51,311 nt of DNA from Loigolactobacillus bifermentans DSM 20003. GTDB lineage: Bacteria; Bacillota; Bacilli; Lactobacillales; Lactobacillaceae. The stretch lies in the NCBI RefSeq assembly GCF_001434575.1, contig NZ_AZDA01000039.1, positions 1-51,311 on the forward strand, in the 5' to 3' direction. Below, piece after piece: positions 17,387 to 45,005 of the stretch. Made by a program: the position numbers and the translations under genes. How positions within the stretch are numbered: the first letter of the stretch is position 1; each line of letters starts with the position of its first letter. The notes beneath the pieces were generated by a model. It searched no databases. It was not told the origin of the DNA and saw only the letters and a list, made by a program, of their open reading frames with translations.

Positions 17387-17515
17387 GAATTGCGCTGTAA
17401 CGCGTAATTCTAGGAGGTGCCATGTGTCTTGCGGTGCGAATTAACGCCACAAGACTGGACATCCTCCGGAAATAAGATCTTTGCGTAGCAAAGGTACATT
17501 AGCGTATTTAGGAGG
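17387..17515 (+). promoter_or_regulatory. Structured leader RNA, copy A (riboswitch-like)
   Basis: The leader before the aquaglyceroporin folds into a hairpin GAATTGCGC/GCGTAATTC (17387-17410), then GGAGG (17413-17417) that can pair with CCTCC (17463-17467). Inside this lie CCA/TGG and a stem GTCTTG/CAAGAC (17426-17431/17450-17455). A conserved string GGACATCCTCCGGAAATAAG (17457-17476) and a second hairpin CTTTGC-GTA-GCAAAG (17479-17493) follow. The ribosome binding site GGAGG (17511-17515) can compete for the same CCTCC. Two tandem copies occur before the TMEM175 gene at 31.3 kb. I do not recognise a known riboswitch class in it. Confidence 0.75.
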
Positions 17516-17528
17516 TAGCAGTAAGGAA

Positions 17529-18248
17529 ATGGATACAAGTGTGATGACACAGGCATTAGGCGAATTGATTGGGACCTTTATTTTAGTGGTGTTAGGGGAT
17601 GGCGTTGTCGCCGGGGTTTCCCTAAAGCGTTCGAAGGCAGAAGGCGCAGGTTGGATCGCCATTACGTTAGGTTGGGGCTTAGCGGTGACCTTAGGGGTTT
17701 ATGCTTCAGCGTTTCTCGGCCCAGCACATTTAAACCCAGCGGTGACCATTGGCTTTGCAGTGATTGGCAAGTTCCCGTGGTCTAGCGTATTACCATTTGT
17801 GATTGCCCAATTGATCGGTGGCTTTTTAGGTGGGGTCTTTGTTTGGTTACAATATTATCCGCATTGGGCAGCAACCAAAGACGCGCCAGCAATTTTAGGT
17901 GTTTTCGCCACAGGACCTGCGATTCGCAAACCTTGGGCTAACTTTTTCAGTGAAGCTTTTGGCACGCTGATTTTAGTTTTTGGACTGTTAACATTTACTC
18001 GCGGTCAATGGACCGACGGGTTGAATCCCATTGGCGTTGGCATCTTGATCACCGCCATTGGGTTATCTTTAGGGGGCACCACCGGTTATGCCATTAACCC
18101 AGCCCGGGACTTAGGCCCACGGTTGGCCCACGCCTGGTTACCGATTGCGAATAAAGGCACTTCTGATTGGTCATACAGTTGGATCCCGGTTTTGGGACCA
18201 ATTGTTGGTGGGATTATCGGTGCAGCATTGTTTACCTTGTTACCATAA
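17529..18248 (+). CDS. Aquaglyceroporin (MIP family, GlpF-like)
   Basis: Membrane channel for water and small neutral solutes such as glycerol; some lactobacillar paralogues pass lactic acid. Six helices with the two half-helix NPA motifs HLNPAVT and AINPARDLGPR; the Asp after the second NPA is typical of glycerol facilitators. About 239 aa. Start ATG 17529 lies 13 nt after GGAGG; upstream in-frame codons are in the leader RNA. The product is not next to glycerol kinase, so its solute is open. It lies behind a riboswitch-like leader. Confidence 0.85.
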   Translation: MDTSVMTQALGELIGTFILVVLGDGVVAGVSLKRSKAEGAGWIAITLGWGLAVTLGVYASAFLGPAHLNPAVTIGFAVIGKFPWSSVLPFVIAQLIGGFLGGVFVWLQYYPHWAATKDAPAILGVFATGPAIRKPWANFFSEAFGTLILVFGLLTFTRGQWTDGLNPIGVGILITAIGLSLGGTTGYAINPARDLGPRLAHAWLPIANKGTSDWSYSWIPVLGPIVGGIIGAALFTLLP

Positions 18249-23739: not shown

Positions 23740-24034
23740 TTAAATTAAAGTGAAACGCGTTGATCGGAAAAGTATTGACCGCCTTCATTTATCCAGCGAC
23801 TTCCGTTTGGTGAGAGAGAAGAAAATGAAACGGCCGAGAAAATCATCCGGGAGCGGTGAATCGAACTTAAAGTAGAATTCATTGGTTGCAACCATTATCT
23901 TGCTAGCGTATCGCGATTTTGAATCGCCGCACGTGAAGAGCTTTTAGCAGTGATGCTAAAACAAAGTAAGGTGGTACCACGTTTATTCAAACGTCCTTTG
24001 ACATGATGACTTTCATGTTGAAGGACGTTTTTTT
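23740..24034 (+). promoter_or_regulatory. T-box leader 2 before ilvB-ilvN
   Basis: T-box leader controlling the ilv operon by uncharged tRNA. The antiterminator is AAGG-TGGTACC-ACGT...ACGT-CCTT, with T-box string near 23968-23981. The competing terminator starts AACGTCCTTTGACATGA, ends GAAGGACGTTTTTTT and finishes at 24034. A GGTGAGA box (stem I tip) is present. The specifier could be ATC (Ile) at 23860-23862, which suits the pathway, but other readings (for example Leu) cannot be excluded by eye. Confidence 0.85.
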
Positions 24035-30667: not shown

Positions 30668-31291
30668 TTAATCGATCACGATCTTTGTAGAACGGCTTAG
30701 CCGAAAATAAGCAACCGTATGGAAAATAATGCCGGCGAGCAAGAGCAACGCGCCAAGCCAGGTTGAAAATGGTGTCACTACTAAAGCAATGGCGTAAATG
30801 GCCACACTACGTAGCGGATCATCCTTGGTTTTTTGATGTAGCTTGGTATGCTTTGCCTGCTTAACGCGCAACGTTGCATGGCGGTTGACGTACGTATATA
30901 GGAGCTTAAAGGAAGCAGAAATCAATAAGGCTACCACATCATAAATGATAAAAGCCGTCTTCATGTCACTTTGATTGCCAGAAGCTAATGCCGACGCAAT
31001 CAGATTCGTGGGATAATCCACCAGTGTAATGGGGAACAAAACCACTAAATTGACAAAGTTTAAGCCGCGGTCGATTTGCGCAATGGTATTGAAATAGTCA
31101 TGGTGAAATAACCAAAGTGTGCCAACATAGAGAAATGAAATAATATAAGCAAATAAAATCGGCCATTGATGCAACACTGCGGTCCATAAATGACCAGTCC
31201 GATAAGCCGGTACGTGGAACTCTAAAACTAAAATTGTAATCAAAATGGCGAATACGCCATCACTAAAGGCTTGCAACCGACCTGGTTTCAT
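30668..31291 (-). CDS. TMEM175-family (DUF1211) channel
   Basis: Integral membrane protein of 207 aa related to TMEM175, a potassium channel family. The diagnostic N-terminal motif RLQAFSDGVFAILITI (FSDGVFAI) is present, followed by about five more helices. Start ATG 31291 has GGAGG 7 nt upstream (31299-31303). The transcript carries two tandem copies of the structured leader RNA also found before the aquaglyceroporin, which suggests that both channels answer to the same signal. It lies just upstream of the SDR pseudogene on the same strand. Confidence 0.88.
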   Translation of the reverse strand: MKPGRLQAFSDGVFAILITILVLEFHVPAYRTGHLWTAVLHQWPILFAYIISFLYVGTLWLFHHDYFNTIAQIDRGLNFVNLVVLFPITLVDYPTNLIASALASGNQSDMKTAFIIYDVVALLISASFKLLYTYVNRHATLRVKQAKHTKLHQKTKDDPLRSVAIYAIALVVTPFSTWLGALLLLAGIIFHTVAYFRLSRSTKIVID

Positions 31292-31303
31292 AGCGAGACC
31301 TCC

Positions 31304-31403
31304 TAAGTTCTTTGATGTCTATTTTGCTCCGCAAAATCTTATTTCCGGAGGATGTCCATTCCTACGGGCGCAATCACCCTCGTAGGAAGCATGGCACCTC
31401 TAA
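31304..31403 (-). promoter_or_regulatory. Structured leader RNA, copy B (proximal to TMEM175 gene)
   Basis: Minus strand: GAGG (31400-31397) pairs with CCTC(C) (31351-31347). Between them lie CCA/TGG and an 8-bp stem TTCCTACG/CGTAGGAA (31388-31381/31366-31359) with inner GGTG/CGCC. The conserved string GGACATCCTCCGGAAATAAG follows, then hairpin TTTTGC-GGA-GCAAAA (31336-31322). The ribosome binding site GGAGG (31303-31299) lies directly behind and can pair with the same CCTCC. Confidence 0.75.
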
Positions 31404-31515
31404 GTACACTTCATATCTATTTTGCTAACGTAAACTCTTATTTCCGGAGGATGTCCATTCTGTCGGACGAAAACCGTCACGACAGAAGCATGGCGCCTCC
31501 TCCAGAAATAATCAT
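31404..31515 (-). promoter_or_regulatory. Structured leader RNA, copy C (distal)
   Basis: Minus strand: GGAGG (about 31500-31496), CCA/TGG, 8-bp stem TTCTGTCG/CGACAGAA (31487-31480/31465-31458) with inner GACG/CGTC, the same 20-nt conserved string, CCTCC at 31450-31446, and a less perfect second hairpin ending in GCAAAA (31425-31420). The CCTCC positions of copies B and C are 99 nt apart, so this is a tandem repeat of about 100 nt. Confidence 0.72.
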
Positions 31516-44772: not shown

Positions 44773-44779
44773 GGAGCCA

Positions 44780-45005
44780 AGAAGCTTAGAAGCAACTAGT
44801 AACCGCAAACTGGTGTTTAGCGAATCAATGGTTGGTGTAAATTGATGATCAGTGGCGGTGAATCCATTGCAGAGCTTGATGGCGATGAGTCATCTCGGTG
44901 AGGCGATATACTCATTTAAGGTGGAGTCTTTCAAAGACTCAAAAATGGGTGGTACCGCGTTAAAACGTCCCGTAGCTTGTTATAGCAGGCTATGGGGCGT
45001 TTTTT
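44780..45005 (+). promoter_or_regulatory. T-box leader of serS, serine specifier TCC
   Basis: T-box riboswitch sensing uncharged tRNA-Ser. The specifier loop can be drawn: GCAA-CTAGTAA-CCGC (44792-44106 side, 44792-44806) pairs with GCGG-TGAATCCA-TTGC (44855-44870), exposing TCC (44863-44865). GGTTGGTGTAAA marks the stem I tip. The antiterminator has GGG-TGGTACC-GCGT...ACGTCCC, with the terminator ACGTCCCGTAGC/GCTATGGGGCGT plus six T ending at 45005. A TGGT bulge pairs less well with the usual G discriminator of tRNA-Ser. Confidence 0.88.

Follow-up and report, generated by a model that had tools for sequence, protein, structure and literature searches.

A dispersed, structured repeat of Loigolactobacillus found at ribosome-binding sites: a probable portable translational leader

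Tandem riboswitches with platforms that sequester the Shine-Dalgarno (SD) sequence present a covarying structure over the SD in tandem copies, and miniature elements derived from IS200/IS605 carry two imperfect hairpins and a guide which pairs with the end of the element. BOX repeats of pneumococcus, in which boxA and boxC modules stand around boxB, are described as varying in tandem number, as having few relations to the function of neighbouring genes and as over-represented between convergent genes (PMC3049150). REPs are described as sequences of 20–40 bp which lie predominantly downstream of coding regions (PMC3733652).

The repeat analysed here shares features with each of these systems. 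Like BOX, RUP and SPRITE of pneumococcus as outlined in the same account (PMC3049150), its units are small structured interspersed repeats with a tandem module, copy-number variation and little evident relation to the function of neighbouring genes. In contrast to BOX as presented there (PMC3049150), the units of an array are alike, mostly end at the sense-strand SD of the next gene and carry a guide complementary to their tail; in the arrays read by eye, one unit type is repeated and no constant end modules of the boxA/boxC type were seen. As high-copy extragenic palindromes with an unpaired tag, the units also recall the GTAG/CGTC superfamilies of REPs sketched in the corresponding paper (PMC3733652). 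In the congener genome G005, many units have tails with GTAG and a guide region with CGTC. They differ from REPs so described (PMC3733652) in their length of ~97 bp, in the combination of two hairpins with guide/tail pairing and in their location, which is mostly at gene starts (61 of 79 arrays), and no linked transposase was found. Hairpins and guide pairing are held in common with IS200/IS605-derived miniature elements, whereas no Y1 transposase was found in 6 of the 8 carrier genomes of the genus. Structure, overlap with the SD and tandem arrangement are shared with tandem SD-sequestering riboswitches, but here the genes concerned have no common theme (30 of 61 typed), arrays comprise up to seven units (genome G006) and sites turn over. 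As the element is unlike BOX in gene position and unlike REPs in length and position, and as Y1 genes occur in 2 of 8 genomes and the model gave only a match of 7.3 bits near them, we filed it as a kind of small structured interspersed repeat. No published description of these repeats in Loigolactobacillus or Pediococcus appeared among the titles and abstract openings listed, and the folded family of ~97 bases is apparently undescribed so far.

We propose, with a probability of about 0.6, that the three copies with which this analysis began are members of a dispersed, structured non-coding repeat of ~97 nt which amplifies in tandem, head to tail, and which sits at SD sites, where it restores the SD, in effect a portable translational leader. 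If this is true, the ribosome-binding site is the special niche of a high-copy structured repeat, which has ~150 units in a genome of 3.1 Mb and has rewritten the leaders of ~60 genes, including those of both gyrase subunits and of fatty-acid operon genes. Its guide/tail code would offer a direct test of site choice by such repeats, and the arrays would be a natural experiment in the rewiring of translation initiation among close species. The case is also a warning that covarying leader RNAs known in few copies can be repeats and not riboswitches.

The three copies lie in a window of 51,311 nt from Loigolactobacillus bifermentans DSM 20003 (contig NZ_AZDA01000039.1), the whole stretch of DNA that was analysed. 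The original prediction reported a 20-nt core identical in three copies, and GGACATCCTCCGGAAATAAG has exactly three exact occurrences in the window, at 17457–17476 on the forward strand and at 31338–31357 and 31437–31456 on the reverse strand, with zero matches in 100 shuffles of the window. The enclosed stems, said to differ in sequence and yet to pair, are present in the copies as quoted and are confirmed by covariation, and the covariation claimed for the second hairpin was recovered as well, its outer pair being U-A in 34, C-G in 11 and other in 6 units (n = 51). Pfam likewise agreed with the neighbours named, placing a MIP channel after the first copy and a TMEM175 protein after the tandem pair. 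The range given for the first copy, 17387–17515, has its end at the unit end, while its start lies 33 bases ahead of the conserved unit. Units extend from CCATG to the next AGGAGG or AGAGG (the latter in copy B), that is, up to the next unit or gene. The first hairpin is longer than had been given, being extended by CCA/TGG, and a third helix had been overlooked in which CCTCC of the core pairs with AGGAGG at the unit end, the apparent SD of the downstream gene.

Unit A, the single copy before the aquaglyceroporin gene, is a covariance-model match of 87.3 bits at 17420–17515 on the forward strand. It comprises the P1 hairpin (CCAT...TGG, 17420–17458), supported by covariation and RNAalifold; the guide CCTCC (17463–17467), complementary to the unit's own right tail by the alignment and the guide/tail count; the P3 hairpin (17479–17493), supported by pair counts in the alignments but not predicted by RNAalifold; and the right tail AGGAGG (17510–17515), an SD candidate for the aquaglyceroporin gene, whose ATG follows 13 nt on. 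This gene of the MIP family (17529–18248, forward strand; PF00230, 3.5e-41) was taken to start at the ATG after the unit. A left tail AGGAGG precedes unit A at 17412–17417 and is an alternative partner of the guide, with which it is paired in the predicted fold of 17412–17536. On the reverse strand, unit B, the first of the tandem pair, is found at 31397–31493 (87.6 bits) with the tail AGAGG, its guide CCTCC at 31446–31450 and a left tail AGGAGG 5′ of it at 31496–31501. It is followed by unit C at 31299–31394 (104.2 bits) with its guide CCTCC at 31347–31351 and the right tail AGGAGG at 31299–31304, an SD candidate for the gene of the TMEM175-family channel (30668–31291, reverse strand; PF06736, 1.4e-26). 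The guides of units B and C were assigned by sequence and by the guide/tail count.

The view that the riboswitch consensuses considered do not fit was borne out by Rfam, in which no family reached the gathering score at the three window copies. At E values up to 10 three hits were obtained (E 1.2 to 3.3; the best covering one was engA, E 3.3), which were taken as chance level. In 24 source slots of other loci Rfam matched a tRNA (L034) and an FMN riboswitch (L098) and nothing else, and both lie apart from the units. Elsewhere in the window, two T-box leaders (RF00230) are present on the forward strand, one at 23751–24001 before the gene of a thiamine-pyrophosphate enzyme, presumably of the acetolactate-synthase type, and one at 44778–44975 before a seryl-tRNA synthetase gene.

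The host genome (3.13 Mb, 147 contigs) has 149 matches, three of which are the window's copies. There, the core with up to three mismatches gave 42 matches, and the covariance model gave 149 matches at E ≤ 0.001 among 150 scored candidates, a few of them partial. Homologous copies were found by this model, built from 51 units, in all eight Loigolactobacillus genomes searched, the host included (149, 72 in G005, 43, 41, 26, 23, 18 and 14 matches), and in other Lactobacillaceae; under the stricter filters of a search across the Lactobacillaceae, 18 of 251 genomes from 5 of 40 genera were positive, including the eight of Loigolactobacillus. A pattern scan yielded 26 stretches, of which 22 belong to five Loigolactobacillus species, three to Pediococcus (P. 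damnosus and P. ethanolidurans) and one to Streptococcus varani. Carriage on plasmids or phages was rejected, as blastn with a two-unit query matched none of 72,556 plasmid records and none of 50,697 phage records. The host carries 151 units in 79 arrays (31 single, 30 double, 13 triple, four of four units and one of five), as counted from 154 model matches after removal of two duplicates in overlapping loci (L122, L033) and one weak opposite-strand match (L119, E 0.0034). Arrays of seven and five near-alike units with a 101-nt period occur at loci L228 and L233 of G006, and at L097 of another Lactobacillaceae genome (G102) there is an alternation of units on one strand with weaker opposite-strand matches, each recurring about every 197 bases.

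All units follow the same order of a P1 hairpin (CCAT...ATGG), a 5-nt guide, a P3 hairpin and a tail of ~25 nt ending in a motif of 5–6 nt complementary to the guide, with a length of ~97 nt and an array period of mostly 95–100 bp. The P1 hairpin spans 39 nt, with CCA/TGG as its closing pairs, and its stem sequences fall into few families (TTCCTACG, GTCTTGCG, TTCTGTCG, TTCCATCG and others), with pairing mostly kept. Between P1 and the guide stands NCA(T/A); 3′ of the five-base guide follow GGAAATAAG or a variant and then P3 (TTTTGC/GCAAAA), and the tail of the main type ends in TTAGGAGG.

The covariance model was derived from a free MAFFT alignment of 51 units, in which 90.7% of cells pair compared with 82.5% in shuffles, 114 cells are changed on both sides compared with 41, and the covariation score is 0.228 compared with 0.094. 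Two of the five measures were no better than shuffles in this alignment, namely double-change pairs (9 versus 8.6) and further pair types (20 versus 23.7). In six of six slid controls fewer than 50% of cells pair. RNAalifold predicted P1 and P2 unaided from the alignment, and P3 was absent from its prediction. The 150 model-aligned rows are biased towards the model; in these rows each of the five measures was above all 500 shuffles, with double changes in 21 of 25 pairs compared with 11.6 in shuffles. A strand test on wobble pairs was mixed, with G-U versus A-C counts of 19/4 for P2, 39/90 for P1 and 2/3 for P3. A covarying, aptamer-like structure as in riboswitches is present, and what can be read from the letters as an expression platform over the SD is found too, P2 holding AGGAGG at SD distance in 51 of the 60 arrays with this ending.

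Placement relative to genes is strongly biased. In the host, 61 of 79 arrays end 3–16 nt before a same-strand ORF of at least 70 aa (strict window), of which a few may be spurious as the ORFs are mechanical. At the opposite end and strand, and with a wider search window, this was the case for 5 of 79 arrays, and 444 of 4000 random draws in the same loci fell before an ORF. Sorted by ending, ORF-adjacent arrays make up 51 of 60 with AGGAGG, 3 of 3 with AGAAGG, 0 of 4 with AGCTGG, 0 of 1 with AGCCGG and 7 of 11 with other tails; none of the five AGCTGG- or AGCCGG-tailed arrays immediately precedes a gene. Nine AGGAGG arrays have no ORF, five of them in a composite repeat and one reaching a contig end. 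Outside arrays, AGGAGG in the same loci is followed by an ORF in 23 of 31 cases, so that most of the adjacency to genes would be accounted for if units were simply placed at AGGAGG. In G005, 38 of 41 determinable arrays (43 of 45 arrays examined) are in sense direction to the downstream gene, and array orientation tracks the replichores in 42 of 45 with a split point fitted to the data, a bias that may be explained by co-orientation with genes.

Pfam typing of 30 of the 61 array-led proteins assigned 29 to a family, and their functions are unrelated. They include gyrase subunits of the A and B types, beta-ketoacyl synthase, biotin carboxylase, DHBP synthase/GTP cyclohydrolase II and RadC, further an FA_synthesis family protein (which we take to be PlsX), CamS, an amino-acid permease, ABC transporter parts, DJ-1 and ferritin-like proteins, and finally Asp23, a penicillinase repressor, a sulphite reductase and an FGGY sugar kinase. 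The gene names gyrA, fabF, accC and ribBA are our reading of Pfam families and gene order. No shared functional theme, metabolic or transport-related as for a riboswitch, was apparent among these 30 of 61 proteins.

The dominant type in the host ends in AGGAGG at the place of the SD and, judged by sequence, the gene keeps an SD-like motif with the unit present. The element may insert at SD sites or be tolerated only there; as types with AGGAGG restore the SD, selection would tolerate them at gene starts. In a closed state the guide would pair with the SD of the gene (P2), and in an open state with the left tail, where one exists, in an extended P1. Units would then be portable translational attenuators whose strength is set by the flanking tails and the copy number. 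Folding of unit A is compatible with both states, since the centroid of 17412–17536, with the left tail included, is predicted to pair the guide with this left tail and to leave the gene's AGGAGG unpaired, and the fold predicted without the left tail pairs the guide with the right tail. Predictions for the tandem pair were ambiguous: the guide of unit C pairs with its tail only in the centroid and that of unit B in part, and the stability of unit B was barely above shuffles (z −1.43). As only 44 of 79 first units are preceded by a left tail that matches AGGAGG in at least 5 of 6 positions, the putative open state is not available everywhere.

Occupied sites turn over between species. The N-termini of 18 array-led proteins were searched in the genus, and the leaders in genomes G005–G007 were checked against model hits. 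Of 35 homologous leaders (15 of the 18 genes, proteins of 49–90% identity, some of them possibly paralogues), just one was occupied among the matches listed, where a model trained on the host genome may miss divergent units. The single occupied leader, that of gyrB in G005, carries its unit in opposite orientation. Paralogous rows had been set aside in the first count; the result was also one with all 52 listed rows for G005–G007, and 1 of 20 among the matches listed at an identity of at least 65%, a subset of the 35 best rows per gene and genome. Upstream of gyrA, no intact unit was seen by eye within 260 nt in seven of seven congeners. An antisense unit before gyrB was noted at loci L182 and L288 of G005, among the few exceptions to sense placement.

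The sister species G006 and G007 have shared sites with 5 versus 3, 1 versus 2 and 1 versus 3 units. At two further sites G006 has one unit with tail-like sequence on both flanks and G007 a solo tail only before the gene, although at the second site the alignment of the left flank is poor. By analogy, such a tail resembles a solo long terminal repeat and would be compatible with loss or gain; as both pairs keep the solo tail, loss fits as well as gain, and no transposition event with a clean target was seen. With regard to MITE features, direct-repeat tails flank the two G006 units, and no terminal inverted repeats were noticed by eye. Recombination between direct-repeat tails would most simply change array size.

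These findings bear on the regulatory function first proposed. The claim of a cis-regulatory RNA class stands in so far as there is a structured, covarying leader which in most cases immediately precedes a gene on its sense strand, but a riboswitch class defined by two channels is not supported. The osmotic, ionic or small-solute signal suggested for the channels likewise finds no support, with units before 61 ORFs, no theme among 30 typed and one of 35 homologous leaders occupied among the matches listed. A metabolite or ion riboswitch for the channels was rejected on gene diversity and site turnover; with 1 of 35 leaders in G005–G007 occupied among the matches listed, the association with orthologous genes of relatives that marks riboswitches was not observed.

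The alternative that survives best, though we consider it doubtful, is a genome-wide cis-regulatory class in which one trans signal (an RNA-binding protein, a small RNA, temperature or a metabolite) toggles the guide between the left tail and the gene's SD in ~60 leaders, forming a large and fast-evolving post-transcriptional regulon. Arguments for such a regulon are that most arrays (61 of 79) lie in sense orientation over the SD, that covariation is strong, that bistable pairing is predicted for unit A and that G005 arrays run in sense direction (38 of 41; 43 of 45 examined); sense-strand placement at gene starts, unlike that of BOX and REP repeats, would be compatible with selection for a regulatory function as well. 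Yet a regulon of this kind is difficult to reconcile with the lack of a common theme in 30 of 61 proteins, with targets not common to three congeners (1 of 35 among the matches listed), with the four AGCTGG arrays and one AGCCGG array not directly before genes, and with internal units whose non-SD tails keep guide/tail pairing.

In 107 of 139 units the guide and the five terminal bases of the unit are Watson-Crick complementary throughout, compared with a mean of 58 and a maximum of 70 in 2000 shuffles; 139 of the 150 rows were used after exclusion of two duplicates and of rows in which guide or tail was gapped. Eight fully complementary types were observed: CCTCC/GGAGG in 79 units, CCAGC/GCTGG in 17, CCTTC/GAAGG in 6, and five seen once each. 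Of the internal units, 22 have a left tail unlike the right one, and in all 22 the guide matches the right tail better, including tails that are no SD sequences. Guide and tail types are linked in G005 (52 units) as well, with tails GTGRAGTAG, GTGAGATAG or GTGGAATAG and close variants, and no simple Watson-Crick helix accounts for all guide/tail types in this genome. The preservation of guide/tail pairing in non-SD types away from gene starts indicates that it serves the element itself and not only the host gene. One may go further and speculate, in our opinion rather at long odds, that the element is a mobile nucleic acid with a rewritable address: the guide of each unit would pair with its own 3′ motif, joint changes of both (AGGAGG, AGCTGG, AGAAGG, AGCCGG and others) would shift its niche, and the AGGAGG address would denote ribosome-binding sites, making each insertion a self-contained translational switch.

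A guide that encodes the tail, together with two hairpins, would likewise suit a non-autonomous derivative of an IS200/IS605-type or REP/RAYT single-strand transposon, with P1 and P3 as the end hairpins and guide and tail as the guide/cleavage-site pair. The linkage of guide and tail types in G005 and the replichore-biased orientation there (42 of 45, split fitted) are in line with such an origin, although this bias may only reflect gene co-orientation. We nevertheless regard it as improbable, as a Y1 transposase is present in 2 of 8 genomes of the genus and none was found in G005 with its 72 matches, and as near the Y1 genes only one partial model match was found (7.3 bits, E 1.7). Mobilisation by IS200/IS605 or RAYT enzymes was rejected, no linked transposase, that is, no Y1 with matching ends, having been found.

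An attenuator based on a leader peptide, in which AGGAGGnGCCATG opens a small ORF ending at GGAAATAA whose translation frees the gene's SD, might be suspected because most units start with an SD-like tail and an ATG and because the core end reads TAA, TAG or TGA in most copies, but it is highly improbable, given that 5 of 52 units have no ATG start and that G005 units as read mostly carry GTAGAG or similar and not AGGAGG before CCATG. As a main function it was rejected on in-frame stops within the 12 codons of P1 in 24 of 52 units and on tails such as AGCTGG, which are no SD.

A few copies in the host have a different context. Five of them (L045:2916, L112, L117, L124 and L144) belong to a longer composite repeat in which one unit is placed between arms like GCGCACGTTAGAGGCCGATTTTG and CAAAATCGGCCGGGTGCGGTGCGC; these copies sit after terminator-like hairpins and not directly before genes. 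A further subfamily with TTAGTAG tails occurs at L107 and L132 of the host, and at L132 a larger inverted repeat, GGCACAAGTGGG ... CCCACTTGTGCC, encloses the array.
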